Shown: positions 1 through 49,644 of the stretch, one piece after another
How the letters are laid out: every line of letters begins with the position of its first letter
Numbering within the stretch: the first letter of the stretch is position 1
Assembly (NCBI GenBank): GCA_030378015.1
Contig: JAUCGG010000001.1
Location: forward strand, 1-49,644
Reading direction: 5' to 3'
Source of the DNA: Desulfococcaceae bacterium HSG8
Lineage (GTDB): Bacteria; Desulfobacterota; Desulfobacteria; Desulfobacterales; 4be13
DNA: 49,644 nucleotides
Made by a program: the position numbers and the translations under genes
Notes under the pieces: model-generated
What the model saw: only the letters and a program-made list of their open reading frames with translations
Told to the model about the DNA's origin: nothing
Database searches by the model: none

Positions 1-470
1 TAAAGGATATCCCAAAGTAGAACACTACTACAGCAACTTGTAAATTCCTCCCCCCTTTTTTAAAGGGGGGGGATTTCTGCCGCAACCTCCTTTTTTGTAA
101 CATAAAATCCCCCCGGCCCCCTTTAAAAGAGGGGGACGAACTTAAAAAGTGGTGTACAGCAACTTGTAAATTTCTCCCCCCTTTTTTAAAGGGGGGCCGG
201 AGGGGATTTCTGCCGCAACCTCCTTTTTTGTAACATAAAAGCAACCTCCTTTTTTGTAACATAAAATCCCCCGGCCCTTTAAAAAAGGGGGGGACGAACT
301 TAAAAAGTGGTGTACAGCAACTTGTAAATTTCTCCCCCCTTTTTTAAAGGGGGGCCGGGGGGGATTTCTGCCGCAACCTCCTTTTTTGTAACATAAAATC
401 CCCCCGGCCCCCTTTAAAAAAGGGGGGGATGAACTTAAAAAGTGGTGTACTACCATCTCAGGCGAGTTTT
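1..470. repeat. Three tandem copies of a C/G-run palindromic element
   Basis: Three successive copies, about 130-160 bp each, of an element whose ends read roughly CAGCAACTTGTAAATTTC and GACGAACTTAAAAAGTGG. Each holds two hairpins of the form CCCCCCTTTTTTAAAGGGGGG separated by a core (GATTTCTGCCGCAACC, then TTTTTTGTAACATAAAATC). The second copy has an internal duplication of the core at about 215-260. The open frames across it are by-products of the repeat and have no ribosome binding site. Related copies lie at 16946-17090, 20648-20685 (short form) and 31190-31300, the last inside a gene. No transposase is nearby, so this looks like a non-autonomous, MITE-like family. Confidence 0.85.
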
Positions 471-27685: not shown

Positions 27686-28462
27686 ATGGCAGGGCCTTTT
27701 CTGGCCAACAGGGCCCTTTCCGCTCGGTTCGGATTGACAAATCCGAACCCACACATGCGGGGGATTTGCCAATCCCCCGCGAGCAACGGGGAAGCAACGG
27801 GGCATCTCTGCCCGGCCAGCAGGGCCTTTTCTGGCCAACAGGGCCCTTTCCGCTCGGTTCGGATTGACAAATCCGAACCCCGCACATGCGGGGATTTGTC
27901 AATCCCCCGCGAGCAACGGGGCATCTCTCCCCAGCAGGGCCCCTCTCTGCTCGGTTCGGATTGGCAATCCGAACCCGCACAGGCGGGGGATTTGCCAATC
28001 CCCCGCGAGCAACGGGGGAGCAACGGGGCATCTCTGCCCCGGTCAGGACCCTTTCCGGCCAACAGGGCCCTTTCCGCTCGGTTCGGATTGACAAATCCGA
28101 ACCCCGAACAGGCGGGGATTTGGCAATCCCCCGCGAGCAACGGGGAAGCAACGGGGCATCTCTGCCCGGCCAGCAGGGCCTTTTCTGGCCAACAGGGCCC
28201 TTTCCGCTCGGTTCGGATTGACAAATCCGAACCCCGCGCATGCGGGGATTTGTCAATCCCCCGCGAGCAACGGGGCATCTCTCCCCAGCAGGGCCCCTCT
28301 CTGCTCGGTTCGGATTGGCAATCCGAACCCGCACAGGCGGGGGATTTGCCAATCCCCCGCGAGCAACGGGGCATCTCTGTTCCGGCCAGCAGGCCCTTTC
28401 CGCTCGGTTCGGATTGGCAAATCCGAACCCGCACATGCGGGGGGATTTGCCAATCCCCCGTG
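27686..28462. repeat. Higher-order array of seven GGTTCGGATTG hairpin units
   Basis: Seven units contain CTCGGTTCGGATTG, at about 27722, 27852, 27949, 28076, 28206, 28302 and 28402. Each unit combines a palindrome GGATTGACAAATCC or GGATTGGCAATCC, a variable CCGCACATGCGG-like hairpin, GGGATTTGTCAATCCCCCGC and GAGCAACGGGGCATCTCT. The spacings (130, 98, 127, 130, 96 and 100) show a three-unit block of about 354 bp present twice in tandem plus a seventh unit. The long open frames across it on both strands arise from this periodicity and are not genes. It joins the remnants of two broken genes. Confidence 0.85.
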
Positions 28463-32300: not shown

Positions 32301-32340
32301 AAAAGATAATGATAACAAAATAGTTGGATTTATAAGGCAT
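29311..32340 (-). CDS. Caspase-family (peptidase C14) outer lipoprotein
   Basis: A protein of 1009 aa. A hydrophobic signal with lipobox LTSC (residues 17-20) marks a lipoprotein. A TPR-like segment (about 60-140), two Ig-like/bacterial surface repeats, the caspase domain (about 405-600) and a C-terminal FlgT/CsgG-like part with ADFVITGKVIEKKN follow. The caspase domain has YALIAGINAYTEWP, the catalytic His in LLIYFAGHGRLDD (about 495) and the catalytic Cys in VVADSCYSANLLRG (about 545), so it is probably active. Around residues 345-390 the coding sequence includes a palindromic repeat element translated in frame. AAGGA lies upstream of the ATG at 32340. It follows the FadL-like gene by 155 bp on the same strand. 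Confidence 0.85.
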   Translation of the reverse strand: MPYKSNYFVIIIFFIALTSCFSGCQTGSEHRVAIEKDGKIYGVTKGAFRHRWWNYYERGTSFSGGRFWREAEADFREALSQWDGDRRRERTYGMHFMDYFPHRELGVTLFHQNRYTEAIRELEISLSKEKSAKAEYYLDKTRKARIEQENSDKGLPEISIESPGDKTLSGHFSIKVRGVVKDDTFVKEIRVNGNPIRIDLATPQIPFETEVPLTTGENTIVVEAADLTGKTSETVRKVLCDRAGPILNIDSFTPANDSEDHYILRGYAYDDSGIKEVRVNGLGILESPVPQISLNHTVIFPAGQKKVVVIAEDQAGNQTRAEISPSVQKTGFSESGKMLLASLDSFLHSSPPFVKGAGGIFDAKKNSCGRNPPRPPFAKGGRNLRNVSYLRSDYYAMKASLLPLKARIKHYRRSGKNYALIAGINAYTEWPVLNTAVNDAAELKNVLTKRYEFPEKNVILRTDKDATRVNLIRDIRRLAAGLTQNDNLLIYFAGHGRLDDLTSDGYWIPVEGKLGDPTTWITNSVIKSILTSEKVRGKNIAVVADSCYSANLLRGGSSSLSFSDRNYQERLLELARKKSRQIFTSGGMEPVADSGRDNHSLFAYYFLRALKENTCDIIDLENLLLTKVWKPVSEKGGQRPNTGRLKTPMDEDGQFILILKSGKSGDAKKKTVSSKSSGDSGVRRAGLPSANDILPDSTPPVLELRRWEKGRTVFLDSIWLEGSARDDSGIQRLTVNGQKILKCPGKNVYFNHLSRLREGENRFIFECSDQVGNRIEKEVLIFRKIPKVYELGSRMSVILCPFELKGKEHTETEDILLGHLIDKGRFDMKDLGGLMADDQKDNSDDTAKNRAIQIARKLDADFVITGKVIEKKNSLQIYARMLETDTLTVLTEEDVYGEGEDAELIRQLCHGLAIKLCDAVPFAEGKIVKVKEKQIIVNIGKKDGIRRGMHMILFEQGEPLRDPDTGEELGSDAEEFGTARIEKIRPRVSYAQILDTSESLKPGMQVVMK
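31190..31300. repeat. C/G-run palindromic element inside the caspase gene
   Basis: A copy of the element seen at 1-470 and 16946-17090 lies within the lipoprotein gene, with hairpins CCCCCCTTTCGCAAAGGGGGG and CCCCCCTTTACGAAAGGGGGG. It adds about 40 codons without breaking the frame. The encoded peptide (SSPPFVKGAGGIF...CGRNPPRPPFAKGG) is almost the same as the translation of the intergenic copies, so this is insertion rather than chance similarity. Confidence 0.85.
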
Positions 32341-32495: not shown

Positions 32496-33815
32496 TCAGA
32501 AATGAACGATAACAGATGAATAGAACATGTGTTCTTCCATGTCCTGGGAAAACTCCCAAGACTTGAGGATGTAAGCTCCGACATTTTTTCCGAACCGGCA
32601 CTGGTAAGCGATGTCGAAAATAACCTGTTTATAGCCGATACCGGAACCGATACTGAACCCGAAATAATCATCCGGGCTTCCTTCTGCCGGGGCAGGGTCG
32701 TAAAAGATTCCGCCGCGCAGCGGAATCACGTATTTTGAAGTGATGAAGAGATATTCCGCGCCGATCCGTACCTGATGCGTCGGGTCAATGTCACCCGGAG
32801 AACCTCCGGTAACGGGCGATGTTTTATCTCCCTCGGAATTCCTGAGAACAAAGTCGTCCCATTCGGTTCTGCAGATATCAGCGGACGCCGTGAATTCACG
32901 GGAAAACCTGTAAGCCATTCCGATGCCGTAAGACATGGGCATGTCCATTGCCGCGTTTTCATGAAGCGAACGCGATTCCGGGGAATCGGAGCCGGGCTGA
33001 ATATCGTAGGATGCCTGGTCGTGATCTATATCTGCCTCAAAAGGGGTTTTAAGAACCGCACCGATGCTGAATTTTTCAGTGATTCCCCATAAAAATCCGA
33101 AATTCATGTTGAAGCCGCTGAATGAATATCGGTCGGTGCTGCGGGCTTCAAAGGAGGACAGATTGCCGCCTGCATAGGCCCCCGTTCCTTCGAGGGAGAG
33201 TTTTTGTTCCCATTCGTTTTCAGTCAGCCCGTTATCCCACAGATTCAGTGTGACGCCGAAAGAGAAGCGAGGCATAACCTGGATGCACCAGGCAATTCCG
33301 AGTGCTGAGAGACCGCCTTCCTGCCGGTAATGAATGGTCTGATTTTTGGACAGTCCCTGTGAATTTACTGCGATACGAAAATCCCATTCCCGATTGAAAT
33401 CATAGAGGTGCTGGTAATTCAATGATACGATCATATTGCGCCCCCAAAGTTCAAAAGGGCAGGCTGCGCTGAAGTAGTTGAGGCGGATTTCGGATACAGT
33501 CTGATCACCGCCCGCTCCCGGGCTGATGCCGAAAGTATTGTCTTCGATGCGGTGAAAAAAATTCCCTGCGTATGAAATTTCCGGCAGTTCCAGTTGAATA
33601 AGGCCGCCCGGATTCCAGGAAGCTGCGGTGGCGTCATCTGCAACTGCAATGAATGCTCCGCCCATTCCGAGTGCCCTGGCTCCGGAGCCGACAGGATTCG
33701 GGGATGAAGGAATTTCGATCCTTCGGATTTCAGGAAAAACTGGGTCTGCAATGATGAGAATGGCGATAAAGGCATACAGGATAAATCGCATTTGCTTGGA
33801 GAGTCCTCGAAACAT
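32496..33815 (-). CDS. OmpP1/FadL-type outer-membrane porin
   Basis: A protein of 439 aa with an N-terminal signal (about 1-28), the FadL-family opening NPVGSGARALGMGGAFIAVADDATAASWNPGGL, about fourteen alternating beta-strands and a terminal phenylalanine (VIVHF) as needed for Bam recognition. FadL proteins let hydrophobic molecules through the outer membrane by lateral diffusion. The start is the ATG at 33815, with GGGAG eight bases upstream, only 12 bases after the stop of the giant protein gene, so the two are cotranscribed. The proximity to caspase-type surface proteins suggests a shared envelope function. Confidence 0.82.
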   Translation of the reverse strand: MFRGLSKQMRFILYAFIAILIIADPVFPEIRRIEIPSSPNPVGSGARALGMGGAFIAVADDATAASWNPGGLIQLELPEISYAGNFFHRIEDNTFGISPGAGGDQTVSEIRLNYFSAACPFELWGRNMIVSLNYQHLYDFNREWDFRIAVNSQGLSKNQTIHYRQEGGLSALGIAWCIQVMPRFSFGVTLNLWDNGLTENEWEQKLSLEGTGAYAGGNLSSFEARSTDRYSFSGFNMNFGFLWGITEKFSIGAVLKTPFEADIDHDQASYDIQPGSDSPESRSLHENAAMDMPMSYGIGMAYRFSREFTASADICRTEWDDFVLRNSEGDKTSPVTGGSPGDIDPTHQVRIGAEYLFITSKYVIPLRGGIFYDPAPAEGSPDDYFGFSIGSGIGYKQVIFDIAYQCRFGKNVGAYILKSWEFSQDMEEHMFYSSVIVHF

Positions 33816-33827
33816 TTTAAGTTCTCC

Positions 33828-36800
33828 CTATGGTTTTAAAATCTGTTTAAAAGGCTGAACCCCGTCGCAAAACCCGAACAGGGTAATTTCCCCGTTTTCA
33901 TCCTGCGGAACTTCCAGATCATATCGTCCGTCCCCTTCGCAGGAAAAGGTATGCTGACCGTTCGCCAGCACCATCGCGCACAGGGGCGTTCCGTCTTCGT
34001 CTGTAACGGTTCCGCTGATTCTCACCTGCCCGGATTCCGCGGGTTCCGTATCAGCAGTCAGGGTCATATACCTGCTGTCCGGAGCCGCGGGCTGCATGAT
34101 GATATCAATATCCGCTGCTTCTTCCGGCCCAAGAATCTCTCTGAACGGCGCAAGTCCGTCGCAGAACGCGAACAGGGTGATTTCCCCGTCTTCGTCCTGC
34201 GGAACTTCCAGATCATATCTGCCGTCTCCATCGCATGAGAATGTGTGCTGACCGTTCGCCAGCACCATCGCGCACAGGGGAGTGCCTTCGTCATTCAGAA
34301 CTGTTCCGCTGACTCTCACCCATTCCGAAGCCTCGTAAGGTTCCAGTTCAAAGTCCTCGGTGACTGCCTCATCCTCTTCCATGATCACGGGACGGGCCAT
34401 CGGCCCGTAGCCCGGGGCCTGAACCGTCATTGTGAAGCTCCCGGGTCTCCTTATGATACGGTATGTGCCGTTCGGGTAAGTGAGGTTGGAGAATCCGTCG
34501 TCCGTGATGATCACGGCCTCTCCGAGCGGTTCCCCGGATTCCGCATCTGTCACCGTGCCGGTCAGTTCTCCCCGGAAATCGCCCACGGGCTGATACAGTT
34601 CGAGAGCATACCCGGTATTTTCCCCGAAAAAGCCGGGGTTCATATTCCCCAGTTTCACGAAGAAAAGTCCGGTGTACGGGCATTCCCAGTCCAGGACTGC
34701 TTCGTCGCCCGCGGTTTCCGTTTTCGCCAGCATTGTGCGGTCGCTATCGTAAATTTCCGCGGCCGCATCGCAGGTGTCGCTAAGGTTGCTGACACGGATC
34801 TGATAGGTCTGCCCCTCGATACCGTAAAATTTTGTCCAATCCTCGTCACCGGCATCGTGGAAGGTGTGATACTGAGGAGTCGCTCCGTTGATCATGATGA
34901 TGCCTGCCTGAAGGAAGGTGTCATCACCTTCGTATTCGTCAGCGTATTCCGATGTCCCTGTCCGGGTGACAGAGGTCCGGGCGGGCAGGGAGACAGAGCC
35001 TCCGGCATCCTCCGCATAAACGGTGATGAGATATGTGCCGTCCCGGGTAAAGCCGTTGTAAAGGGCTTTGTAAGTTCCGTCATTGTCAGGATCATGAAGT
35101 TCCGCTGTAAAAATAGTCGGGGACGCGGGGTCGGAATCGGGCGGGATAATTTCGGCCCATACCCGTGCGATCCCGCTTTCGCTGTTTACATGAGCCTCTA
35201 TGGTCGCGAAGGTATCTTCCTTCAGAAACTGATCTTCGGATACCCCGGTGATGTAATCCCTTTCCTTTTCCGTTGTAATGGTTCTGAACGTGGAATATAC
35301 GCCCTTGCTGCTCACCGCGCAGAAGGTGATGCTGTAAGTCCCTCTTGCCGTGAAGTTGTCGTAAATCCCTTCGTAAAATCCGTCGCTGTCAGGATCACTC
35401 AGTTCGACTTCTGGAAGGTCTGTCACAGGTGTATCCGGCGATCCTGGGTCGAATCCGGGCGGTTCGATGATGGCCCATACCCGGCGGATTTCGGCCTTGT
35501 CTTCGGAATAGCTCACCGCGGCCCGGAGTGTGGCCGCGGTTTCCCCGCTGTAAAGTGTCTCCGGTTCGGATGATGTGTCATAAATGTAGGGAACATCCAG
35601 GGGCGGGCGATATCCCCTGCGAATCCTCTTCATTTCGTCTTTCAGGATTTCATCCGCTGGCTGCTCGTTTCCGATGCCGTTTCCGTTGACATCCATAAGC
35701 GCGGTCTGGTAGGATGCCATCTGATCTCTGGCCCGGAAAAAGGCTTCGTCAGCATTCCTGCCTTTGTAAACCGCATCCCAGAACTGGTAGGAAAAGGAGA
35801 GGGTTCCGCGGCCGATGAAATAGGCAGATTCTCCTGCTGACGCGCTGGCTATGGTGATACGTTCCGCATCGGAAGGCGGACGCAGGTGAGGAAGGAAGGT
35901 GCCGGATTCGCACGCATCATAGACAAAAAGCACGGGGACGGGAGAGGCTGTCTGAAGATTATCCAGCCAGTTGTCAAGTTCTTCCGCGCTGAGAACTTCT
36001 TCAGCATTGATTTTGAAGCGTCCGTCTGTGCCGTGATCTACAAGATAAAGGAGAAGCTGGGTGGCATAAGGTTCCTCTTTTATCCAATCGTTTATCGCGT
36101 ATGACAGGTTGTCGTGAGTGGCGGGCGCGTCAACTCTTTCCGAATCTGCTTCGGGGCTGAGGTAGTAAATGCTTTCCGCTGTGTAGCCTTGGTAAAGCAG
36201 GGCTTCGTATGCGTGTTCGGCAGCCATGCGGGTTTCTTTCCAGATTTTGTTGTCGGGGGCGGAACTGCCTCCGGCGAGGATGATGGCTTTGGTGTCTAAA
36301 AGATAGGATTCTTCAGGAGTGACGAAGGTGATCGCTCCGGGGAGTTCATGGCTTTCCTCTTCATTTAAAACCCTCAGTGTGTAATGGCCTGGGATTTCGG
36401 GACCGGGAATGGTGAGGGAAATGCTTGTCTGAGTTACTTTGTCAGGTATGACCTCAATCACCGAAGGCACAGTCAGAATCTGTAAGCCGCCATCCAGAGC
36501 TGCCACAAAAGCAGTTGTGCCAGACACCGTCACTCCCCAGGCTAAACCCGGCATTCCAATCGACCCGATAAGAGAAGGATTTCGAGGATCACTCACGTCT
36601 ATAATCTGTAGCTTACCATCTGCTACAAAAGCAGTTGTGCCGGACACCGCCACTCCGAGGGCTTGACCCGGTGTATTTGCGGCCCCGATAATGACAGGGT
36701 TCCTGGGGTCGCTCACATCTGCTATCTGCAAGCCGCCATCCATAGCCGCTACATAAGCAATCGTGCCGGATATCGCTACTCCTGTGGCTTCACCCGGCAT

Positions 36801-39800
36801 ATCTGCAGATCCGATAATGACAGGGTTCGCGAGGTCGTTCACATCTGCTATCTGCAAACCGCCATCCATAGCCGCTACATAAGCAATCGTGCCGGACACC
36901 GCCAATCCCCAAGACTGACCCGGCGTATTTAGAGATCCGATAATGACAGGATTCCTGGGGTCGCTCACGTCTGCTATCTGCAGGCCATATCCATCCGCCA
37001 CATAAGCAGTTGTACCGGACACCGTCACTTCCATGGCATAAGCCAGCCTATCAGCTACCCCGACAATAACAGGGTTTGCGGGGTCGCTCACATCTGCTAT
37101 CAGTAAGCCGCCATCCCCGTCAGCCACATAAGCGGTCGTGCCGGATACTGCCACTCCCCAGGCATCACCCGGTGTATGTGCAAACCCGATAATGGCAGGG
37201 TTTGCGGGGTCGCTCACATCTGCTATGTGCAAGCCATACCCATCCGTCACAAAAGCATTCGTGCCGGATACTGTCACTTTGGCGGCTTCACCTCGTGTAT
37301 CTGCGGACCCGGTAATGAGTGGGTTCCTGGGGTCGCTCACGTCTGCTATCTGTAAGCCGTCTTCCCAAGCCGCCACATAAGCGGTCGTGCCGGACACTGC
37401 CACTCCCCGGGCACCATCCGGTGTAACTGCGGATCCGATAATGACAGGGTTCCGGGGATCGCTTACGTCTGCTATCTGCAAACTGCCATTTGTTGCGTCC
37501 GTCACATAGGCAGTCGTGCCAGACACTGCCACTCCCGAGGCATAAGCCGGTGTATCAGCGACCCCGATAATGACAGGGTTCGCGGGGTCGCTCACATCTG
37601 CTATCTGCAAGCCGCCCTCTCTGTCCGCCACATAAGCGGTTATACCGGACACTGCCACTCCGGCTGCATGATCCGGGGTATCAACGGCCCCGATAATGAC
37701 AGGGTTCGCGGGGTCGCTCACGTCTGCTATCTGCAATCCGCCTTCTCTGTCCGCCACATAAACGGTGGTGCCGGACACTGCCACTCCCCAGGCATAATCC
37801 GGGGTATCAACTGCCCCGATAATGACAGGGTTCGCGGGGTCGCTCACATCTGCTATCTGCAATCCGCCATCCCAATCCGCCACATAAGCGGTCGTACCGG
37901 ACACCGCCACTCCCCAGGCTTGACCCGGTGTACCTGCGGTCCCGATAATGACGGGGTTCCGGGGGTCGCTCACATCTGCTATCTGTAAGCCGCCATCGCC
38001 GTCAGCTACATAAGCGGTCGTACCGGACACTGCCACTCCCGCTGCATCACCCGGGGTGTCAGCGGCCCCGATAATGACAGGGTTTGCGGGGTCGCTCACA
38101 TCTGCTATCTGCAAGCCGCCATCCCAATCCGCCACATAAGCTGTCGTGCCGGACACCGCCACTCCCCAGGCATAACCCGGAGTATCTGCTGACCCGATAA
38201 TATTTCTTTTACTCCAGCTATCTGAAATCATAAAAATTCTTGTATTATCATCAAATTTGTCACCGGTCAGCGTCACGTCTTTCAGAGCCTTTCCTGCCTC
38301 ACCGAGATTGGGATAAACGGATTCCGCTTTCAAAGGCATACCGATATGTTTCTCAGCAGTTGCAGCAGCTTTGAAAATTACAGCATCTTTCACATTATAA
38401 AGCTGACAATCGTTGCTGTCCCATATTTTAAACGTGATTTTTTCTCCGTCATTCTCCGACGTAACGGTGAAATGATATGTCCAGTCTCCGCCTGATTCGG
38501 TAATATCCGATATCCCCCGGCAGTCTGAATCTCCTCCCGGCCCGAAAGCAGCGACAGTATAACCTTCTGTTTCTATCTCTATATCATTTATATAAGCTTC
38601 TCCGTGAAGCTGCATTGCAAAATGTTCCGGCCTGTCGCAGTTCCAGTCCGGAGCAAAGGACACAGCTTCGGCTAACCGACTACTTTCCGTGTCATTAAAA
38701 ACCTTCAGCGTATAGCGACCGGCTGCCGCAGGAGCGGGAATGGTGAGGGATATGTCTGTTTCTCCCTTCACAGCGACGGGAACAATTTCCACCGGTACCG
38801 GCACGGTCATCATCTTCAGAGCAGCCACATAAGCGATGGTGCCGGAGACCGTCACTCCGAGGGCTTCAGCTTGCGTATCCATTGATCCGATAATGACAGG
38901 GTTCCGGGGATCGCTCACATCTGCTATCTGCAAGCCGCCAGATCCGCCCGCCACATAAGCGGTCGTGCCGGATACCGCTACTCCGAAGGCAGAACCGGGC
39001 ATATCTGCAAACCCGATAATGACAGGGTTTCGGGGGTCGCTCACATCTGCTATCTGCAGGCCGCCAGTTCCGTCCGCCACATAAGCGGTCGTGCCGGACA
39101 TCTCCACCCCCATGGAATAACCTGGGGTATCAGCGGCCCCGATAATGACAGGGTTTCGGGGGTCGCTCACATCTGCTATCTGCAAGCCGCCAGATTCGTC
39201 TGCCACATAAGCGGTTGTGCCGGATATCGCCACTCCCCTGGCATCCCCCGGGGTATCAACGGCTCCGATAACGACAGGGTTTCGGGGGTCGCTCACATCT
39301 GCTATCTGCAAACCGCCTTCCCAATCCGCCACATAAGCGGTCGTGCCGGACACCTCCACTCCGTAAGCAGCGGCCGGCATATTCACTGCCCCGATGATGA
39401 CAGGATTCCGGGGGTCGCTCACGTCTGCTATCTGCAAGCCGCCATCCCAAGCCGCTACATAAGCAATCGTGCCGGATATCGCTACTCCTGTGGCTTCACC
39501 CGGCATATCTGCAGATCCGATAATGACAGGGTTGCGGGGGTCGCTCACGTCTGCTATCTGCAAGCCAGCCCAATCCGTCACATAAGCAATGGTGCCAGAC
39601 ACCTCCACTCCCGATGCAACACCCGGATACGGCATATCTGCGGACCCGAGAGGTCTTTCCATATACATTGAAACCCTGGTATTCTCGTCAAATCCGCTTC
39701 CGGTCAGAGTGACCTGCAAATCCTTTCCTGCAACGCCGTGGTCCGGGGAAACGGATTCCAGTTCCAATGGTGCGTATTTTCCCCAGTTTAAAATGATGTT

Positions 39801-41216
39801 GCCGGAATCTCCGTCATACCCGTCCACAACGATATAATATTGCGTACCTGGCTGAGTCTGAAGGATAATATTGCTGTTTTTGGCAGTCAACCCCTCATCA
39901 TCGTTACTTACCACTTCTGTCAGACTGCCAAGGGCTGAACCGGTGTAAACTGCAAGAAATGTATTGAAGTTGCTCCCGCGTGTATCAAAATAAAATTGTT
40001 CGGTTTTCGGCGCTGTCCATCTCCACCATACCGATTTTCCTCCGATCCGATTCGCGTGATCCGGTTCGTCCGCCTCCCGGGTGGCAAAAAAATTTGATCC
40101 GCTTGTACGCCCGGACAGCCCAGTGAGCATAACCGCGTCAGAAAAGTTATCATTTTCCGGTCGTGTTAAGACAGTCTTATACTTTTGATATTCATTATTA
40201 TTTTCGTCGGATTCTGCTACATCATTACCCGCATCACAGATTAATCTTAATGTATATGTTCCCGCCTGAGAAAAGGTATATTTAAAATCTTCTACAGAAG
40301 CATAATGGTCTTGTTGTAATCCTTCTGTATAAAACACTTTTATCCGAGTCTCATTGATATAAAACTCCGTATAAAATGTTTCATTAATATCCGCGCTGCC
40401 ATTATTTTCAATAGCAAGGTCAATGTATGCCGTTTCCCCGGCCAGCACAGGTGTATCACTGTATGTATGGGGTTCAGCGGATACCACAATCTTGTCATCC
40501 CAGGTATTATTATATGGTCTCCAGGGTGCTATGTCAGGTTCACCACCGACATTCGGAATATTCTTGCTGCGCTCATATTCGTTATCACTCTCATCTGATT
40601 CTGCCACATCATTATCCGGATCACATACCAGTTTCAATGTGTAGGTTCCTGGCTGAGAGAAAGTGTGTTCCACATCTTCCACAAAAATATAATAATCTTG
40701 TTCTAATCCGTCAGTGTAACCCCGGTATATCTGACTCCCGTTGATATACATCTCATCATAGAACCCCTCGTTAATGTCCGCGCTGCCATCATTTACATAG
40801 GCAAAATCAATATATACGGTTTCCCCGGCATACACCGTTTTTTCAGTATTGGTATCAGGTTTATCTGACACAACAATTTTATCATCCCATTCATCCGGCT
40901 TGAAGGGCGTCAGGTTGGGATATCTTTCTGATTTACTCCTGCCATACCCTTCTCCTGCCTTGCCATACCTCTTTTTACCGTTAACATCCGATGCTTTTGC
41001 ATAAGGATAACTTTTCACAGACCGCGAAATCGGAGGGCTGAAGCCATCCTTGTCCCGGTCTTTTTTATCTCGTCCATGTACAATAATTCGTTTTTCAAAG
41101 ATAACCCGTTCCTGTGATTTTTCTGTTCCATCTGATGCCTCGGACATCAGGGAACATGTAAAGAAAATACAAAGCACTGCCAGTATGATCCGGCTGATTT
41201 CATATCTGTTCTGCAT
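33828..41216 (-). CDS. Giant secreted LVIVD-propeller protein with clan-CD protease domain (giant 1)
   Basis: A protein of 2462 aa. Signal peptide (about 1-27), two CARDB-like domains (about 105-345) and a PPC-like domain (about 360-475) come first. Then come an IPT/TIG half-domain, seven LVIVD repeats (about 520-805) and the other IPT half. A surface module containing YTVAAFGPGGDSDCRG (about 860-960) follows, then a second split IPT around 14 LVIVD repeats (about 1000-1585). The protease domain has LLLYLVDHGTDG (His near 1729) and LFVYDACESGTF (Cys near 1768), as in legumain/caspase-clan peptidases. Ig-like, PPC-like and carboxypeptidase-regulatory-like repeats end in FCDGVQPFKQILKP. The start is the ATG at 41216, with AAGGAGG upstream; the frame extends to 41309 through a palindrome. 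Confidence 0.85.
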   Translation of the reverse strand: MQNRYEISRIILAVLCIFFTCSLMSEASDGTEKSQERVIFEKRIIVHGRDKKDRDKDGFSPPISRSVKSYPYAKASDVNGKKRYGKAGEGYGRSKSERYPNLTPFKPDEWDDKIVVSDKPDTNTEKTVYAGETVYIDFAYVNDGSADINEGFYDEMYINGSQIYRGYTDGLEQDYYIFVEDVEHTFSQPGTYTLKLVCDPDNDVAESDESDNEYERSKNIPNVGGEPDIAPWRPYNNTWDDKIVVSAEPHTYSDTPVLAGETAYIDLAIENNGSADINETFYTEFYINETRIKVFYTEGLQQDHYASVEDFKYTFSQAGTYTLRLICDAGNDVAESDENNNEYQKYKTVLTRPENDNFSDAVMLTGLSGRTSGSNFFATREADEPDHANRIGGKSVWWRWTAPKTEQFYFDTRGSNFNTFLAVYTGSALGSLTEVVSNDDEGLTAKNSNIILQTQPGTQYYIVVDGYDGDSGNIILNWGKYAPLELESVSPDHGVAGKDLQVTLTGSGFDENTRVSMYMERPLGSADMPYPGVASGVEVSGTIAYVTDWAGLQIADVSDPRNPVIIGSADMPGEATGVAISGTIAYVAAWDGGLQIADVSDPRNPVIIGAVNMPAAAYGVEVSGTTAYVADWEGGLQIADVSDPRNPVVIGAVDTPGDARGVAISGTTAYVADESGGLQIADVSDPRNPVIIGAADTPGYSMGVEMSGTTAYVADGTGGLQIADVSDPRNPVIIGFADMPGSAFGVAVSGTTAYVAGGSGGLQIADVSDPRNPVIIGSMDTQAEALGVTVSGTIAYVAALKMMTVPVPVEIVPVAVKGETDISLTIPAPAAAGRYTLKVFNDTESSRLAEAVSFAPDWNCDRPEHFAMQLHGEAYINDIEIETEGYTVAAFGPGGDSDCRGISDITESGGDWTYHFTVTSENDGEKITFKIWDSNDCQLYNVKDAVIFKAAATAEKHIGMPLKAESVYPNLGEAGKALKDVTLTGDKFDDNTRIFMISDSWSKRNIIGSADTPGYAWGVAVSGTTAYVADWDGGLQIADVSDPANPVIIGAADTPGDAAGVAVSGTTAYVADGDGGLQIADVSDPRNPVIIGTAGTPGQAWGVAVSGTTAYVADWDGGLQIADVSDPANPVIIGAVDTPDYAWGVAVSGTTVYVADREGGLQIADVSDPANPVIIGAVDTPDHAAGVAVSGITAYVADREGGLQIADVSDPANPVIIGVADTPAYASGVAVSGTTAYVTDATNGSLQIADVSDPRNPVIIGSAVTPDGARGVAVSGTTAYVAAWEDGLQIADVSDPRNPLITGSADTRGEAAKVTVSGTNAFVTDGYGLHIADVSDPANPAIIGFAHTPGDAWGVAVSGTTAYVADGDGGLLIADVSDPANPVIVGVADRLAYAMEVTVSGTTAYVADGYGLQIADVSDPRNPVIIGSLNTPGQSWGLAVSGTIAYVAAMDGGLQIADVNDLANPVIIGSADMPGEATGVAISGTIAYVAAMDGGLQIADVSDPRNPVIIGAANTPGQALGVAVSGTTAFVADGKLQIIDVSDPRNPSLIGSIGMPGLAWGVTVSGTTAFVAALDGGLQILTVPSVIEVIPDKVTQTSISLTIPGPEIPGHYTLRVLNEEESHELPGAITFVTPEESYLLDTKAIILAGGSSAPDNKIWKETRMAAEHAYEALLYQGYTAESIYYLSPEADSERVDAPATHDNLSYAINDWIKEEPYATQLLLYLVDHGTDGRFKINAEEVLSAEELDNWLDNLQTASPVPVLFVYDACESGTFLPHLRPPSDAERITIASASAGESAYFIGRGTLSFSYQFWDAVYKGRNADEAFFRARDQMASYQTALMDVNGNGIGNEQPADEILKDEMKRIRRGYRPPLDVPYIYDTSSEPETLYSGETAATLRAAVSYSEDKAEIRRVWAIIEPPGFDPGSPDTPVTDLPEVELSDPDSDGFYEGIYDNFTARGTYSITFCAVSSKGVYSTFRTITTEKERDYITGVSEDQFLKEDTFATIEAHVNSESGIARVWAEIIPPDSDPASPTIFTAELHDPDNDGTYKALYNGFTRDGTYLITVYAEDAGGSVSLPARTSVTRTGTSEYADEYEGDDTFLQAGIIMINGATPQYHTFHDAGDEDWTKFYGIEGQTYQIRVSNLSDTCDAAAEIYDSDRTMLAKTETAGDEAVLDWECPYTGLFFVKLGNMNPGFFGENTGYALELYQPVGDFRGELTGTVTDAESGEPLGEAVIITDDGFSNLTYPNGTYRIIRRPGSFTMTVQAPGYGPMARPVIMEEDEAVTEDFELEPYEASEWVRVSGTVLNDEGTPLCAMVLANGQHTFSCDGDGRYDLEVPQDEDGEITLFAFCDGLAPFREILGPEEAADIDIIMQPAAPDSRYMTLTADTEPAESGQVRISGTVTDEDGTPLCAMVLANGQHTFSCEGDGRYDLEVPQDENGEITLFGFCDGVQPFKQILKP

Positions 41217-41593
41217 GATAACTGACCTCCTTGTCTTATTAATTATAGTTATACAGCGGAGTTCAAAGCTTGCTTTGTAAGTGATCTTTAATAAACACTC
41301 ACAAAGCAAGCTTTGATCTTCGTTGCCAGCAAATTATAACCTATTGATATTATAATATTTCTTGGAAAGCAAATCTGCCCGGTTCCATGATTTTATCTCA
41401 TATCATCAAGGAATAGCACATTTAATTCGTTTCCATTCTATGACAATCTCCTTTCTTCGGGCCGGTTCTCAGAACCCCGGATATGATTATCATGACAGAT
41501 ACTGTATGTACCTGTAAGCCTGTCTGCCAACGGCTTTATATAGCTTAAATAAGATTATACACAATCAACCGTTATAAAGCAACTGTTTTTTTA
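41217..41593. promoter_or_regulatory. Upstream region of giant 1 with a perfect hairpin
   Basis: TCAAAGCTTGCTTTGT at about 41262-41277 is matched exactly by ACAAAGCAAGCTTTGA at about 41300-41315, making a 16-bp stem with a 22-base loop about 45 bases upstream of the giant gene ATG at 41216. It could form in the mRNA leader. The rest of the segment is AT-rich without a gene; I did not find a promoter that meets a good consensus. Confidence 0.55.
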
Positions 41594-42219: not shown

Positions 42220-45200
42220 CTATGGTTTTAAAATCTGTTTAAAAGGCTGAACCCCGTCGCAGAACCCGAACAGGGTAATTTCTCCGTTTTCATCCTGCGG
42301 AACTTCCAGATCATATCGTCCGTCCCCTTCGCAGGAAAAGGTATGCTGGCCGTTTGCCAGCACCATCGCGCACAGGGGAGTTCCGTCTTCGTCTGTAACG
42401 GTTCCGCTGATTCTCACCAGCCCGGATTCCGCGGGTTCCGTATCCGCGGTCAGGGTCATATATCTGCTGTTCGGAGCCGCGGGCTGCATAGTGATATCGA
42501 TATCCGCTGCTTCTTCCGGCGCAAGAATCTCTCCGAACGGCGCAAGCCCGTCACAGAACGCGTACATGGTGATTTCCCCGTTTTCATCACGCGGGGCTTC
42601 CAGGTCATATCTGCCGTCTCCGTCGCATGAAAAGGTGTGCTGACCGTTCGCCAGAACTATCGCGCACAGGGGGATGCCTTCATCATCCAGGACGGTTCCG
42701 CTGAGTCTCACCCATTCGGGAGCCTCGTAAGGTTCCAGTTCAAAGTCCTCGGTGACTGCCTCGTCCTCTTCCATGATCACGGGACGGGCCATTGGCACGT
42801 AGCCCGGGGCCTGAACCGTCATTGTAAAGCTCCCGGGTCTCCTGATGATCCGGTATGTGCCATCAGGATAGGTGAGATCGGAGAATCCGTCGTCCGTGAT
42901 GACCACTGCTTCTCCGAGCGGTTCCCCGGATTCCGCATCTGTCACCGTGCCGGTCAGTTCTCCCCGGAAATCGCCCACGGGCTGATACAGCTCGAGAGCA
43001 TACCCGGTATTTTCCCCGAAAAAGCCGGGATTCAGATTCCCCAGTTTCACGAAGAAAGGTCCGGTGTGCTGGCATTCCCAGTCCAGGACTGCTTCAGTGC
43101 CAGCGGTGCCAGTGTTTTCCGTTTTTGCCAGTATTATACCGTCTGTATCATAAATTTCCGCGACCGCATCGCAGGTGTCGCTAAGGTTGCTGACCCGGAT
43201 CTGATAGGTCTGCCCCGATATGGCGTAGAATTTTGTCCAGTCCTCGTCGCCGCCATCGTGGAAGGTGTGATACTGGGGAGCCGCTCCGTTGATCCTGATG
43301 ATGCCTGCCTGAAGGAAGGTGTCATCACCTTCGTATTCGTCAGCGTGTTCCGATGTCCCTGTCCGGGTGACAGAGGTCTGGGCGGGCAGGGAGACAGAGC
43401 CTCCGGCATCCTCCGCATAAACGGTGATGAGATATGTGCCGTCCTGAGTAAAGCCGTTATAAAGGGCTTCGTAAGTCCCGTCATTGTCAGGATCATGAAG
43501 TTTTTCGGTAAGAATCGTCGGGGAGTCGGGATCGGAATCCGGCGGGATGATCTCTGCCCATACCCGTGTGATGCCGGTTTCGCTGTTTACGTGCGCCTGT
43601 ATGGTTGCGAAGGTCTCTTCGTCCAGAGACTGATCTTCGGATACCCCGGTGATGTAATCCCTTTCCTTTTCCGTTGTAATGGTTCTGAACGTGGAATATA
43701 CGCCCTTTTTGCTCACCGCGCAGAAGGTTATGCTGTATGTGCCTCTTGCTGTGAAGCTGTCGTAAATTCCTTCGTAAAATCCGTCCCTGTCCGGGTCGGT
43801 CAGTTCCACTTCGGGGAGGTCTGTCACAGGGGTATCCGGTGATCCGGGGTCGAATCCGGGCGGTTCGATGACTGCCCATACCCGGCGGATTTCGGACTTG
43901 TCTTCGGAATAGCTCACCGCAGCCCGGAGTGTGGCCGTGGTTTCCCCGCTGTAAAGGAATTCCGGTTCGGATGATATGTCGTAGATATAGGGGACATCCA
44001 GGGGCGGGCGGTATCCCCTGCGGATTCTCCTTGCTTCATTTGTCAGGTTCTGATCCTCAGGCTCGTTTCCTACGCCGTTGCCGTTCGTATCTATGAGCGC
44101 TGTCTGGTAGGGCGACATCTGATTTTTTGCCTGTAAGAAGGCTTCGTCAGCATTCTTACCATTGTAAACCGCATCCCAGAACTGGTAGGAAAAGGAGAGG
44201 GTTCCGCGGCCGATGAAATAGGCGGATTCTCCTGCCGACGCGCTGGCTATGGTGATACGTTCCGCATCGGAAGGCGGGCGCAGGTAGGGAAGGAAGGTGC
44301 CGGATTCGCACGCATCATAGACAAAAAGCACGGGGACGGGAGAGACTGTCTGAAGATTATCCAGCCAGTTGTCAAGTTCTTCCGCGCTGAGAACTTCTTC
44401 AGCATTGATTTTGAAGCGTCCGTCTGTGCCGTGATCTACAAGATAGAGGAGAAGCTGGGTGGCATAAGGTTCCTCTTTTATCCAATCGTTTATAGCATAT
44501 GACAGATTGTCGTGAGTGGGGGGAGCGTCAACCCTTTCCGAGTCTGTTTCGGGGCTGAGGTAGTAAATGCTCTCCGCTGTGTAGCCCTGGTAAAGCAGGG
44601 CTTCGTAGGCATGTTCGGCAGCCATGCGGGTTTCTTCCCATATTTTGTTACCGGGGTCGGAACCGCCTCCAGCGAGGATGATGGCTTTGGTGTCTAAAAG
44701 ATAGGAGTCTTCGGGGGTGGCGAAGGTGACTGCGCCGTGGAGTTCGTGGCTTTCATTTTCATTGAAAACTTTCAGTGTATAATGGCCGGGTATCCGAGGA
44801 CCCGGAAGGGTCAGAGAGATATCTGTTTCATTGTTTACAGTGACAGAACTGATCTCAACCGGCATGGAAACCACAGAGATTCGTCCATCTTCGTTCAGGC
44901 GACAAACTATTCCGTCTTCTGATACATCATCTTCAGCGGAATCCGGGGCATCGGCCGAACCGATGATGACGGGATTTTCGGGGTTGGCGATGTCTATCAT
45001 ATGAAAGCGGCCATTCCCATCTGGCACATAAGCCTTTCCGGCTGACACGATGACATTACTGGCATAACCAGGTGTCTCGACCGAGCCGATAATGACGGGG
45101 TTTTCAGGATTTCCGATGTCAATCACCTGAAGAAGGCTGCTCCACTCTTCATTAAGGCTGCAGACCACATAAGCCTTTCCGTCTGAAACCGTGACATCAT

Positions 45201-48200
45201 AAATCTCCGGAATCTCGATTGATCCGGTGATGATAGGATTTTCAGGATTGCCGATGTCGATCACCTGAAGGCCGCTCCACTCTCCATTCTCTCCATTATT
45301 CCACAAGTCTGTATCATAAGGTCTGCAAACCACATAAGCTTTTCCGTCTGAGACCGTGACATCATAAATCTCCGGAATCTCGATTGATCCGGTGATGACA
45401 GGATTTTCAGGATTGCCGATGTCGATCACCTGAAGGCCGCTCCACTCTCCATAACTCCAAAATTCTGTATCATAAGGTCTGCAAACCACATAAGCTTTTC
45501 CGTCTGAGACCGTGACGCCGCGAGCCCAACTCGAGGTCCAAACCAAGCCAATGATAACGGGATTTTGGGGATTGCTGATGTCTATCACCTGAAGAGCACA
45601 TCTGTCGCACTCGGGCATATATTCAATAATATAATCGTCACAAGAAATCACATAAGCCTTTCCGTCTGAGACCATGACATCATTTGAGATGATGTCACCC
45701 CATCCATCGGCAAACCGGGGCCAGATGGTGGCATAGTTTTTTTCAGGATTGCCGATGCCGATCACCTGAAGGCCGCTCCGGCCATGAGTATGATAAACTA
45801 CATAGGTTTTTCCGTCTGAAACGGTGACACCGAAAACATCACCCGGAGTTTCAATCGAGCCGATGATGACAGGATTTTCAGGATTGTCTATATCAATCAC
45901 CTGAAGGCCGTCAGATGCCACATAAGCTTTTCCATCTGAGACGGCGACGCTACTGACGCTACTAGTCCCAAAGGCCCCAACTGAGCCGATGATGACGGGA
46001 TTTTTAGGATTACTGACATCAATCACATGAAAGCCGTAATATGCGTCCGCCACATAAACCTTTTCGCCTGAAACGGTGACATCGTTAGCGTCACCATAAT
46101 TAAAAGCATAACGCGGGAACTCGACCGCGCCGATGATGACAGGATTTTCAGGATTGCCGATGTCTATCACCTGAAGGCTGTCAGACACCACATAAGCTTT
46201 TCCATCCGAGACGGCGACGCCGCTAGCCATCCCCGGAGTCACGACCGATCCGATGATGATAAGATTTTCAGGATTGCTAATGTCTATGATCTGGAGAGCG
46301 CCATCCACTACATAAGCCTTTTCGTCCGAGACGGTGACATCAACAGCAATGCCCGGTGTATCGGCTGATCCGATGATAACGAGATTTTCAGGGTTGCCAA
46401 TATCTATGACCTGAAGCCCCTCTTCACCATCCGCTACATAAGCTTTTTCGTCTGAAACAGCTACGCTGTAAGCCCGTCCCGGAGTCTCGACCGAGCCGAT
46501 GATGACGGGATTTTCAGGATTACTGGCATCAATCACATGAAGGCCGTAATGTCCGTCCGCCACATAAGCCTTTCCGTCTGAAACGGTGACATCGCTCCTA
46601 ATAACAGAATCAAAATCATAATCCGGGAATTCAACCGAGCCGATGATCATTCTTTTGTTTCCTGTATCCAGGTACATAGAAACTCTCGTGTTTTCATCAA
46701 AGCCGGTTCCTGTAAGGACCACGTCCGCGTCGATATCCCGCGTCGCCACACCGAGATTGGGATAAACCGATTTCAGCTTCAAGGAGATATCAAGATTCTT
46801 ATTAACATATGAATCAGCTTTGAAAACAATTGCGTCTCCGATACTGCGAATCTGACCGGTATTGCTGTCCCATATTTTGAACGCGATTTTTTCACCGTTA
46901 TCATCAGCGGTAACGGTGAGACGATAGCTCCACTCCTCTTCGGAATTGAAAATATCTGCCTTACCCCGGCAGTCGGAATCCCCGCCGGGCCCGAATGCCG
47001 CGACCGTATAACCGTCCCCTTCCGCTCTGACACCATCAATCCATATACCTCCGTTAAGCTCCATTGTGAACTTTCCCGATTCAGGGTTCCAATCGGGAGC
47101 GAAAGCGATTGCACCGGGTAGTTCATCGCTTTCATTTTCATTGGAAACTCTCAGGGTGTAGCGGCCAGGTACCAGGGAGTCGGGAAGGGTAAGAGAAATG
47201 TCTGTCTCACTGTTTACGGTAAAGGGTCCGGTTTCGACTGACAAGGTAACAACAGATAGTCCGTAATTTCCCGTCACATAAGCTTTTCCGTCTGAGATGG
47301 TGACAAGCCAAGCCTCCCCCGGAATCTCGACCGAGCCGATGATCACAGGGTTTCCAGGATCACCGATGTCGATCACCTGAAGGCCATCACCATCCGTCAC
47401 ATAAGCCTTTCCGTCTGAGGTGCTGACAAGCCAAGCCTCCCCCGGAATCTCGACCGAACCGATAATAACGGGATTTTCAGGATTGCCGATGTCGATCACC
47501 TGAAGGTCGCTCCACTCTTCATAATATTCGGCGCAAGCCACATAAGCCTTTCCGTCTGATACGCTGACACCCCGAGCAGAACCCGGAGTCTCGACCGAAC
47601 CGATAATAACGGGATTCTCAGGATTACCGATGTCGATCACCTGAAGGCCACCATCCCAATCCGCCACATAAGCCTTTCCATCTGAGACTGTGACACCGAG
47701 AGCCTCCCCCGGAGTCTCGACCGAGCCGATGATGACGGGATTTTCAGGATTGCCGATGTCTATCACATGAAGGTCATCACCATCCGTCACATAAGCCTTT
47801 CCGTCTGAGGTGCTGACAAACAAAGCCCCCGGAATCTCGACCGAACCGATAATAACGGGATTTTCAGGATTTCCGATGTCTATCACATGAAGTCGTCCCC
47901 CATCGTACCAATAATTGTTTAGGCGACTAGTCAGATAAACCCTTCCGTTTGAGACGGCGACATCATAAGCCGCAGTCGGAGTCTCGACCGAGCCGATGAT
48001 GACGGGATTTCCAGGATTGCTAATGTCTATCACACTAAGGCCGCTCCACTGTTTTTCATCTCCATATCCGCTGCAAGCCAGATAAGCCTTTCCGTCTGAG
48101 ACTGTGACACCCCAAGCATCCTCCGGAGTCTCGACCGAGCCGATATCCGGGTAGATGATGACTTCGGTATTCTCATCAAACCGGGCTCCTGTCAGCGTCA

Positions 48201-49644
48201 CTTCAAGAACCTGCCCCGCTATCCCCTGATCAGGAGAAACCGATTCCAGTGTCAGGGGGATGTCAAGATTCTTATTGACATACGAGTCTGCTTCAAAAAT
48301 GATTGTGTCTCCGATGCTGTGAATCTGGCCGGTATTGTTGTCCCATATTTTAAACGTGATTTTTTCACCGTTACCATCCGCGGTAATGCTGAGGCGATAG
48401 TTCCACTCCCCTTCGGAATCTGTAATATCCGCTTTACCCCGGCAGTCGGAATCCCCGCCCGGCCCGAATGCCGCGACCGTATAACCCTCCCCTTCTGCTC
48501 TGGCACCATCAATCCATATTCCTCCGTGAAGTTCCATAGAGAGCTTTCCTGATTCCGGGTTCCAGTCTGGCGCGAAGGCGATTGCGTCGGGGAGTTCATA
48601 GCTTTCATTTTCATTGAAAACTCCCAGGGTATAGCGGCCGGGTATCCGGGGGCCGGGAAGGGTAAGAGAGATATCTGTCTCACTGTTTACGGTAACTGAC
48701 CAGATCTCGACCGGCAGGGGAAGGACAGACAGCCCGTAACTTTCGTCCGCAACATAAGCCTTTCCGTCTGAGACGGTGACACCCTGAACAGAACCCGGTG
48801 TCTCGACTGACACGATGATGACGGGATTTTCAGGATTGGCGATGTCGATCACCTGAAGGCCGCCATCATCATCCGCCACATAAGCCTTTCCGTCTGAGAT
48901 GGTGATATCCTTAGCATAACCCGGTGTCTCGACGGAGCCGATGATGACGGGATTTTCAGGATTGGCGATGTCGATCACCTGAAGGCCGCCATCCCTATCC
49001 GCCACATAAGCCTTTCCGTCTGAGATGGCGACATCATAAGTATCCCCCGGTGTCTCTACGGAGCCGATGATAACGGGATTTTCAGGATCGCCGATGTCGA
49101 TCACCTGAAGGCCGCCATTTCCATCCGCCACATAAGCCTTTCCGTCTGAAACGGTGACACCCCGAGCAGAACCCGGAGTCTCGACCGAGCCGATGATGAC
49201 GGGATTTTCAGGATCGCCGATGTCGATCACCTGAAGGCCGTCCCACTGTTCATATCCGCCGCAAGCCACATAAGCCTTTCCGTCTGAGACGGTGACACCC
49301 AGAGCATAACCCGGAGTCTGGACCGAGCCGATGATGACGGGATTTTCAGGATCGCCGATGTCGATCACCTGAAGGCCGCCATCATCCGCCACATAAGCCT
49401 TTCCGTCTGACACGGTGACACCGTAAGCAGAACCCGGAGTCTCGACGGAGCCGATGATGACGGGATTTTCAGGATTGCCTATGTCGATTATCTGAAGGCC
49501 GCCATCCCTATCCGCCACATAAGCCTTTCCGTCTGACACGATGACACCCCGAGCATAACCCGGGGTATCGACTGACCCGATAATCCTTGCAAGATATATG
49601 GAAACACCTGTGTTTTCATCAAAACCGGTTCCTGTAAGACTCAT
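42220..49644 (-). CDS. Giant LVIVD-propeller protein with clan-CD protease domain (giant 2, N-terminus outside window)
   Basis: A paralogue of giant 1, open from the window edge for 2474 codons; the ATG-like codon at 49644 is internal (SLTGTGFDENTGVSIY is the IPT half before a propeller). Visible in order are an LVIVD array of seven repeats, module, array of seven, module and array of 13, each array between two halves of an IPT/TIG domain. Then come the protease domain with YLVDHGTDG (near 44430) and VYDACESGTF (near 44310), Ig-like and PPC-like domains and the same C-terminal repeats, ending FCDGVQPFKQILKP. Repeats read DGKAYVADGDGGLQVIDIGN and NPVIIGSVETPG. The last 2.5 kb is nearly identical to giant 1, while the propeller repeats differ in consensus. 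It may begin another operon upstream. Confidence 0.85.
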   Translation of the reverse strand: MSLTGTGFDENTGVSIYLARIIGSVDTPGYARGVIVSDGKAYVADRDGGLQIIDIGNPENPVIIGSVETPGSAYGVTVSDGKAYVADDGGLQVIDIGDPENPVIIGSVQTPGYALGVTVSDGKAYVACGGYEQWDGLQVIDIGDPENPVIIGSVETPGSARGVTVSDGKAYVADGNGGLQVIDIGDPENPVIIGSVETPGDTYDVAISDGKAYVADRDGGLQVIDIANPENPVIIGSVETPGYAKDITISDGKAYVADDDGGLQVIDIANPENPVIIVSVETPGSVQGVTVSDGKAYVADESYGLSVLPLPVEIWSVTVNSETDISLTLPGPRIPGRYTLGVFNENESYELPDAIAFAPDWNPESGKLSMELHGGIWIDGARAEGEGYTVAAFGPGGDSDCRGKADITDSEGEWNYRLSITADGNGEKITFKIWDNNTGQIHSIGDTIIFEADSYVNKNLDIPLTLESVSPDQGIAGQVLEVTLTGARFDENTEVIIYPDIGSVETPEDAWGVTVSDGKAYLACSGYGDEKQWSGLSVIDISNPGNPVIIGSVETPTAAYDVAVSNGRVYLTSRLNNYWYDGGRLHVIDIGNPENPVIIGSVEIPGALFVSTSDGKAYVTDGDDLHVIDIGNPENPVIIGSVETPGEALGVTVSDGKAYVADWDGGLQVIDIGNPENPVIIGSVETPGSARGVSVSDGKAYVACAEYYEEWSDLQVIDIGNPENPVIIGSVEIPGEAWLVSTSDGKAYVTDGDGLQVIDIGDPGNPVIIGSVEIPGEAWLVTISDGKAYVTGNYGLSVVTLSVETGPFTVNSETDISLTLPDSLVPGRYTLRVSNENESDELPGAIAFAPDWNPESGKFTMELNGGIWIDGVRAEGDGYTVAAFGPGGDSDCRGKADIFNSEEEWSYRLTVTADDNGEKIAFKIWDSNTGQIRSIGDAIVFKADSYVNKNLDISLKLKSVYPNLGVATRDIDADVVLTGTGFDENTRVSMYLDTGNKRMIIGSVEFPDYDFDSVIRSDVTVSDGKAYVADGHYGLHVIDASNPENPVIIGSVETPGRAYSVAVSDEKAYVADGEEGLQVIDIGNPENLVIIGSADTPGIAVDVTVSDEKAYVVDGALQIIDISNPENLIIIGSVVTPGMASGVAVSDGKAYVVSDSLQVIDIGNPENPVIIGAVEFPRYAFNYGDANDVTVSGEKVYVADAYYGFHVIDVSNPKNPVIIGSVGAFGTSSVSSVAVSDGKAYVASDGLQVIDIDNPENPVIIGSIETPGDVFGVTVSDGKTYVVYHTHGRSGLQVIGIGNPEKNYATIWPRFADGWGDIISNDVMVSDGKAYVISCDDYIIEYMPECDRCALQVIDISNPQNPVIIGLVWTSSWARGVTVSDGKAYVVCRPYDTEFWSYGEWSGLQVIDIGNPENPVITGSIEIPEIYDVTVSDGKAYVVCRPYDTDLWNNGENGEWSGLQVIDIGNPENPIITGSIEIPEIYDVTVSDGKAYVVCSLNEEWSSLLQVIDIGNPENPVIIGSVETPGYASNVIVSAGKAYVPDGNGRFHMIDIANPENPVIIGSADAPDSAEDDVSEDGIVCRLNEDGRISVVSMPVEISSVTVNNETDISLTLPGPRIPGHYTLKVFNENESHELHGAVTFATPEDSYLLDTKAIILAGGGSDPGNKIWEETRMAAEHAYEALLYQGYTAESIYYLSPETDSERVDAPPTHDNLSYAINDWIKEEPYATQLLLYLVDHGTDGRFKINAEEVLSAEELDNWLDNLQTVSPVPVLFVYDACESGTFLPYLRPPSDAERITIASASAGESAYFIGRGTLSFSYQFWDAVYNGKNADEAFLQAKNQMSPYQTALIDTNGNGVGNEPEDQNLTNEARRIRRGYRPPLDVPYIYDISSEPEFLYSGETTATLRAAVSYSEDKSEIRRVWAVIEPPGFDPGSPDTPVTDLPEVELTDPDRDGFYEGIYDSFTARGTYSITFCAVSKKGVYSTFRTITTEKERDYITGVSEDQSLDEETFATIQAHVNSETGITRVWAEIIPPDSDPDSPTILTEKLHDPDNDGTYEALYNGFTQDGTYLITVYAEDAGGSVSLPAQTSVTRTGTSEHADEYEGDDTFLQAGIIRINGAAPQYHTFHDGGDEDWTKFYAISGQTYQIRVSNLSDTCDAVAEIYDTDGIILAKTENTGTAGTEAVLDWECQHTGPFFVKLGNLNPGFFGENTGYALELYQPVGDFRGELTGTVTDAESGEPLGEAVVITDDGFSDLTYPDGTYRIIRRPGSFTMTVQAPGYVPMARPVIMEEDEAVTEDFELEPYEAPEWVRLSGTVLDDEGIPLCAIVLANGQHTFSCDGDGRYDLEAPRDENGEITMYAFCDGLAPFGEILAPEEAADIDITMQPAAPNSRYMTLTADTEPAESGLVRISGTVTDEDGTPLCAMVLANGQHTFSCEGDGRYDLEVPQDENGEITLFGFCDGVQPFKQILKP

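Follow-up and report, generated by a model that had tools for sequence, protein, structure and literature searches.

Why do neighbouring genes for giant proteins carry repeat arrays of seven or fourteen units? The question is raised by a stretch of 49,644 nucleotides from Desulfococcaceae bacterium HSG8 (assembly GCA_030378015.1, contig JAUCGG010000001.1, positions 1 to 49,644), which we call the window and which is part of contig C122 (C, L and G numbers are our handles for contigs, loci and genomes) of a draft genome of 6.0 Mb. On its minus strand lie two giants whose arrays consist of the LVIVD repeat (PF08309). We argue that, very probably, the 42-residue LVIVD unit is a propeller blade and seven units are a ring, that arrays of 7, 14 and 21 units are one, two and three rings, and that the rings of this clade lie nested in an IPT/TIG domain.

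LVIVD arrays in the genome

Giant 1 (33828..41309, minus strand, as for all features of the two giants below) scores 559.6 bits against PF08309 in 19 stretches and giant 2 (42220..49644) 463.5 bits in 18, the cut-off being 20.2. A profile of the 42-residue unit, built from the genome's own LVIVD repeats, finds 7 units in giant 1 at residues 565-830 (array 1, 38799..39659), which we read from the sequence as one probable seven-bladed ring, and 14 at residues 1047-1612 (array 2). In giant 2 it returns 7 units (array 1, 48724..49584), 7 units (array 2, 47245..48153) and 12 units (array 3, 44863..46659). After the twelfth unit of this last array a degenerate 13th can be seen by eye (44863..44937, residues about 1570-1594); it is missed by all the unit profiles run, so that the count of 13 is a count by eye. 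An earlier note on this DNA had counted 7 and 14 repeats in giant 1, which lie where it had placed them, and 7, 7 and 13 in giant 2: the profile returns the first four numbers, while the 13 is obtained by eye only.

Nine further arrays are found in this genome, with 7, 7 and 7 units in a third giant, 14 in C48, 7 and 14 in C178, 14 in C188, 7 in C230 and 11 in C191. By the unit profile, 12 of the 14 own arrays hold 7 or 14 units (8 of the 9 outside giants 1 and 2). The count of 11 is doubtful, because the C191 array lacks the N-terminal TIG half described below and its frame opens near the contig end after several stops.

In most own arrays a single strand, the last of the unit (profile positions about 32-42), stands ahead of unit 1, and the final unit ends near profile position 15-28; the half repeats that had been noticed at the array ends are thus a common feature of these proteins. 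The second array of giant 3 (L001 8745-13650, residues 672-990) has no leading half strand and its final unit is complete. It keeps seven of each strand, since the missing first half strand is offset by the full last unit: the closing strand appears to have shifted from one end to the other, and the number stays seven. Counts, half repeats and the TIG halves that flank the arrays are all read from the protein sequences.

Repeat counts in related proteins

Matches to PF08309 occur in 17 of 40 relatives, in 49 of 297 genomes of this phylum and in 29 of 198 genomes of Spirochaetota. The census rests on these matches, because a scan of genome contigs with an alignment of 7-unit arrays gave only 7 loci. 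Among the matches listed, 86 stretches were picked by strength (6 own, 60 related and 20 from spirochaetes). Three L001 arrays that repeat giant 2 and arrays with fewer than three strong units were dropped before counting. Of 102 arrays, 8 cut by contig or locus ends were set aside as well, and 94 are untruncated. Periods of at least 75 residues were taken as missed units. Two counts were set by hand: array 3 of giant 2 was raised from 12 to 13, and L088 was lowered from 15-16 to 14, since two other profile runs gave 14 and its first unit is false.

The number of units is a multiple of seven in 66 of the 94 arrays (33 of 7, 32 of 14 and one of 21; 61 of 94 before correction), where a chance of 1/7 predicts 13.4, and there is no excess for divisors 4-6 and 8-12 among these arrays. 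Next in frequency comes 13, a recurring near miss by one unit, with 10 arrays. In the spirochaete set, 13 of the 20 untruncated arrays hold 7 or 14 units. The counts in related proteins therefore do cluster at seven, as the reading in the earlier note requires. Its proposal of one or two seven-bladed propellers per cassette agrees with the arrays of 7 and 14 and has to be widened to three, on account of the array of 21.

This last array is the sole triple among the 102; it occurs in L074 (G003:C74), in one protein together with an array of 7. In L129 (G236:C27), two adjacent genes have seven units each, with periods that are mostly exactly 48 residues. The short sets of 3 and 4 units include broken frames (L091) and the G067 sets (L116, L121); in L091 (G002:C1:4700000-4707000) the array is spread over two overlapping frames, with 4 + 6 units, and the copy looks broken. 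Open frames that match LVIVD reach 13848 residues in L055 (G228:C42) and 13836 in L056 (G208:C22).

Predicted structure

The 14-unit array of giant 1 was modelled with AlphaFold2 together with both TIG halves. The model has a predicted local distance difference test score (pLDDT) of 86.8 and four strands per unit. In unit 7 the pLDDT drops below 50 over residues 340-343, which separate the third strand of this unit from its fourth and lie where a first ring closed by velcro would be expected to end. In the structural comparison with VIA, units 1-7 (model residues 47..336) match the designed seven-bladed propeller 7big with Z 38.0, at 1.4 Å over 265 residues. The model thus predicts seven four-stranded blades in a ring for the first half of the array (blades 1-7, model residues 47-340, 37323..38204).

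As for the second ring (blades 8-14, 36465..37322), eleven of the 50 matches listed by VIA start at residues 32-36 and end at 624-631, with 272-279 residues aligned at 1.9-2.3 Å. They are single-ring chains such as Gbeta and beta-TrCP, which we take to be seven-bladed. These ranges, which give end points only, fit a second ring, and the matches to the array form groups that end separately at 333-340 and 624-631. In the model, the 14 blades of this one array would therefore be arranged as two rings of seven. Closure would occur by pairing of the first and last strands, and there are half repeats at both ends in the sequence. Because the eleven matches start at 32-36, there are also hints that the last strand of the N-terminal TIG half (residues 32-36) may complete the last blade of the double ring, and so lock both domains.

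The third match listed by VIA, 2ymu, aligns across both rings with Z 36.4, at 12.1 Å, which implies that its two rings are oriented differently from those of the 14-unit array. The Foldseek matches include the tandem WD40 chains Utp21 (4nsx) and AIP1 (9qfq). VIA lists propellers only, so that the lack of an immunoglobulin-like match is uninformative on the TIG halves.

For the 13-unit array of giant 2, the model has a pLDDT of 74.9; single-ring chains match it at about 49..356, the confidence is low at 352-372, and six more units follow by sequence. The second ring has no match of its own among the 50 listed by VIA. The earlier note had suggested a degenerate or lost blade in this array: the degenerate 13th unit is indeed there, and the array is better read as one clear ring of seven followed, probably, by a ring of six whose last blade is degenerate. 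Overall, structure prediction gives rings that are matched by seven-bladed propellers and no solenoids; neither this outcome nor the counts refute the earlier note.

A split IPT/TIG domain around the arrays

Two parts of one IPT/TIG domain directly flank these arrays, a point absent from the earlier note. In giant 1, array 1 is preceded by an N-terminal half (residues 513-550, 39660..39773; TIG profile positions 3-36 alone, 3-73 joined) and followed by a C-terminal half (residues 838-885, 38655..38798; flank profile and joined Pfam match). Around array 2, the corresponding halves are at residues 993-1030 (38220..38333) and 1616-1662 (36324..36464), both identified with the flank profiles and, when joined, by a Pfam score under the cut-off. 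When the array is removed and the halves are joined, the score against the Pfam TIG profile (cut-off 20.9) is 25.0 bits for array 1 of giant 1 and 31.2 bits for L105, and the matches cover positions 3-73 and 1-79 of the 84 of the profile; two of the three joined pairs thus exceed the cut-off. The unjoined TIG domain in giant 1 scores 17.9 bits, and the match of the N-terminal half alone stops at position 35-36.

Both halves score at least 25 bits beside 13 of the 14 own arrays, which themselves trained the profiles, beside 15 of 67 arrays in other genomes of the phylum, and beside none of 21 arrays from Spirochaetota. A half tested on the wrong side scores at most 8 bits. L088 failed the test for the N-terminal half because of its false first unit; the half is readable in L037. 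The 28 TIG-nested arrays are all from this phylum, and 25 of them are multiples of seven. The other three have 13 units, one counted by eye and two by gap correction and by eye; by eye, L083 and L087 each have 13 units within a split TIG domain, like the array of giant 2.

Variation among blades

In 6 of the 29 arrays of exactly 14 units (giant 1 array 2, C48, L073, L078, L084 and, from the spirochaete set, L147), the closest counterpart of 11-13 of the 13 usable units is another unit of that array. Since their nearest relatives are mostly in the same array, blades have been copied or converted inside arrays; the count is still 14. Duplication of a whole propeller as the sole route to 14 was considered and rejected: identity at offset 7 barely exceeds, if at all, that at other offsets (0.80 versus 0.67-0.80 in L073, 0.75 versus 0.69-0.80 in giant 1 array 2).

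Among 984 units, 150 of 174 insertion events, counted within units and not between them, fall in the b-c loop. Sequence entropy across the same units peaks at the b-c loop and where strand a begins. The d-a and b-c loops of WD40 propellers share one face, so that, by analogy, this pattern suggests a binding face on the rings.

Proposed explanation and its alternatives

We propose that each LVIVD unit would be one four-stranded blade and that seven units would close one ring. An array of 7 would then be one seven-bladed beta-propeller, an array of 14 two rings without a linker, and an array of 21 probably three. Closure would use the usual overlap, in which the lone outer strand ahead of unit 1 completes the strand-short last unit. 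Two points are well supported: a ring takes seven units, and arrays mostly consist of whole rings. In this clade, the rings would enter the immunoglobulin-like IPT/TIG domain after its third predicted strand and leave at the next. The domain could still fold because a closed ring brings its own ends together; an open arc would hold the two halves apart. The need for the TIG domain to fold would therefore let selection favour whole rings during the amplification and homogenisation of blades. We infer this closure constraint, as well as a binding role for the rings and the face that they would use: they are probably binding heads on giants that would be secreted, and several of these very large proteins carry a C13-like cysteine peptidase. 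It may further be that the nesting acts as a check on ring closure, whole rings being gained or lost and odd blade numbers mostly purged, an idea that we regard as rather doubtful.

Several observations weigh against the proposal. Of the 94 arrays, 28 are not multiples of seven, ten of them being 13 and one, from this genome, 11. By sequence, the PDB entry that matches best is the designed protein SAKe6BC, whose name suggests six blades. The model of the 14-unit array was computed from an alignment of six rows and has a predicted template-modelling score of 0.64; three of the five models scored 72.6, 58.8 and 56.4. In it both TIG halves have strands, with a pLDDT of about 55-78. For array 2 of giant 1, the TIG halves when joined reach 16.7 bits, below the cut-off, and neither of the two C-terminal halves tested alone matches TIG. 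The Spirochaetota arrays also favour 7 and 14 units, without TIG flanks; nesting is thus not needed for the quantum of seven, and closure alone must suffice there. Last, it is possible that gene conversion homogenises blades without a change in their count.

The strongest competitor, although an unlikely one, is that the blade number is loose, and that rings of six, seven and eight blades are all used, seven merely being the commonest. The ten arrays of 13 could be taken in this sense, as could those of 6, 8 and 9 units (3, 2 and 3 of the 94), and 15 WD40 blades are arranged as 7 + 8 according to the accessible text of PMC9218822. However, 33 arrays have exactly 7 units, 32 have 14 and one has 21, and no array has 15 once L088 is set to 14.

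It could also be that the counts go back to a few ancestral arrays and were passed on by copying of the cassette, in which case seven would be structurally meaningless. The arrays are indeed related, and dependence among them is large. When they are clustered by unit identity, multiples of seven make up 49 of 73 clusters at 70% and 31 of 47 at 60%, and only 6 of 12 at 50% linkage and 2 of 3 at 45%. The gene conversion mentioned above, which would leave the count unchanged, would also be compatible with inheritance. On the other hand, neighbouring cassettes of one protein step by sevens (7 + 14, 7 + 21), the same steps are common to two phyla, and the predicted structure breaks after the seventh blade, all of which makes inheritance as the whole explanation very improbable. 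That the arrays are open beta-solenoids or one 14-bladed ring, and that multiples of seven reflect something else, is hardly credible even if very long propeller arrays are hard to model (47 blades in the accessible text of PMC9218822), since single-ring chains match at 1.4-2.3 Å over 265-279 residues, the dip in confidence follows the seventh blade, and the nearest natural PDB sequence is the haloalkylphosphorus hydrolase 5hrm, taken as seven-bladed from a title.

Relation to known propellers

Returning to the proposal of seven-bladed rings, much of it has precedents: the LVIVD repeat, its modelling as a propeller and the folding of 14 blades as two sevens (2YMU) are already known, and the ring arithmetic agrees with established propeller biology. 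The Pfam entry for LVIVD reportedly describes a likely propeller with 2-14 copies. The repeat of the giants is this same 42-residue repeat, which was named in 2004 (PMC2447325). In 2021 an LVIVD protein was modelled on the homology template 4jsn_B, with a template-modelling score of 0.78 between the contact and homology models (PMC8078820). Neither the sevens in copy number nor the TIG nesting are described for LVIVD in the accessible parts of these two papers. Giant 2 also matches the choice-of-anchor B family TIGR04312 (147.4 bits over six stretches, against a cut-off of 100), whose subfamily model has 364 positions and covers the LVIVD repeats; giant 1 has no match to it at E 0.01, and our literature search found no paper on this family.

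The closest parallel is WRAP, the C-terminal propellers of Npun_R6612 (2YMU), in which 14 recently amplified blades form two rings of seven, as predicted for the 14-unit array; its blades are near-identical WD40 blades rather than LVIVD, and no split TIG domain is noted for it in the accessible text (PMC6805158). At E 0.01, 10 and 11 Pfam families match the giants, and none of them is a WD40 family. The highly repetitive propellers of PMC9218822, as far as its accessible text goes, share with our arrays amplification at the level of blades, a blade number preferred by lineage and tandem rings per array; the word LVIVD is absent from that text. The enzyme 5HRM, the best natural PDB match (E 3.6e-10, after SAKe6BC), has a similar blade motif and differs by its long loops and diverged blades. 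As to IPT/TIG (PF01833), the joined flanks match it nearly end to end; here, however, one to three whole propellers are inserted into the domain, near profile position 36. Judging by titles, in a search that covers subscription journals poorly, we found no report of a propeller inside a TIG domain. The nesting, and the presence of exactly two rings in blade-homogenised arrays, look new.

Other features of the locus

Giant 1, whose TTG start codon is the pick of the open reading frame finder, has two CARDB domains, the TIG domain with the array of 7, that with the array of 14, a C13-like peptidase and a CarboxypepD_reg domain. Its Peptidase C13-like region (35820..36059) scores 28.4 bits against PF01650 and that of giant 2 scores 25.8 bits, both above the cut-off of 22.8; the C178 protein, with 20.9 bits, is below it. 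In both giants, the domain is C-terminal to the last array and the putative His and Cys motifs (VDHG and YDACESG in giant 1) are intact by eye. A paralogue in C188 (L004 2284-5613), with an array of 14, has no C13 match in Pfam; its C13-like region lacks both motifs by eye and is perhaps an inactive peptidase.

A start of giant 2 within the window is not demonstrated, and this gene is probably the C-terminal part of a longer one cut by an assembly gap. A run of 99 N directly follows the window end at 49644 (L001 8646-8744); the frame of giant 3 is open up to this gap, and giant 2 picks up beyond it in the same TIG motif. Giants 2 and 3 are likely to be a single protein that exceeds 4,100 residues, as judged from the sequence, even though their frames are out of register across the 99 N, whose number may be a placeholder.

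Next to giant 1, the gene at 32496-33815 encodes an outer-membrane protein of the FadL/TodX family. The neighbour at 29311-32340 encodes a caspase domain (Peptidase C14); it also contains, in frame, a stretch that resembles a translated short palindromic repeat. A duplicated 158-base element at 82-398, with C and G runs arranged palindromically, is perhaps related to this stretch. Tandem repeats of about 96, 130 and 354 bases occupy 27690-28460, a region open on both strands.

Significance

An uncharacterised surface repeat hereby gains a defined structural unit, and its arrays of 7, 14 and 21 units a natural record of growth ring by ring. According to the accessible text of PMC9218822, the amplification of blades has no counting system. 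The homogenised arrays that stand at exactly two rings, some of them within a domain whose halves must meet, make this question of counting testable.

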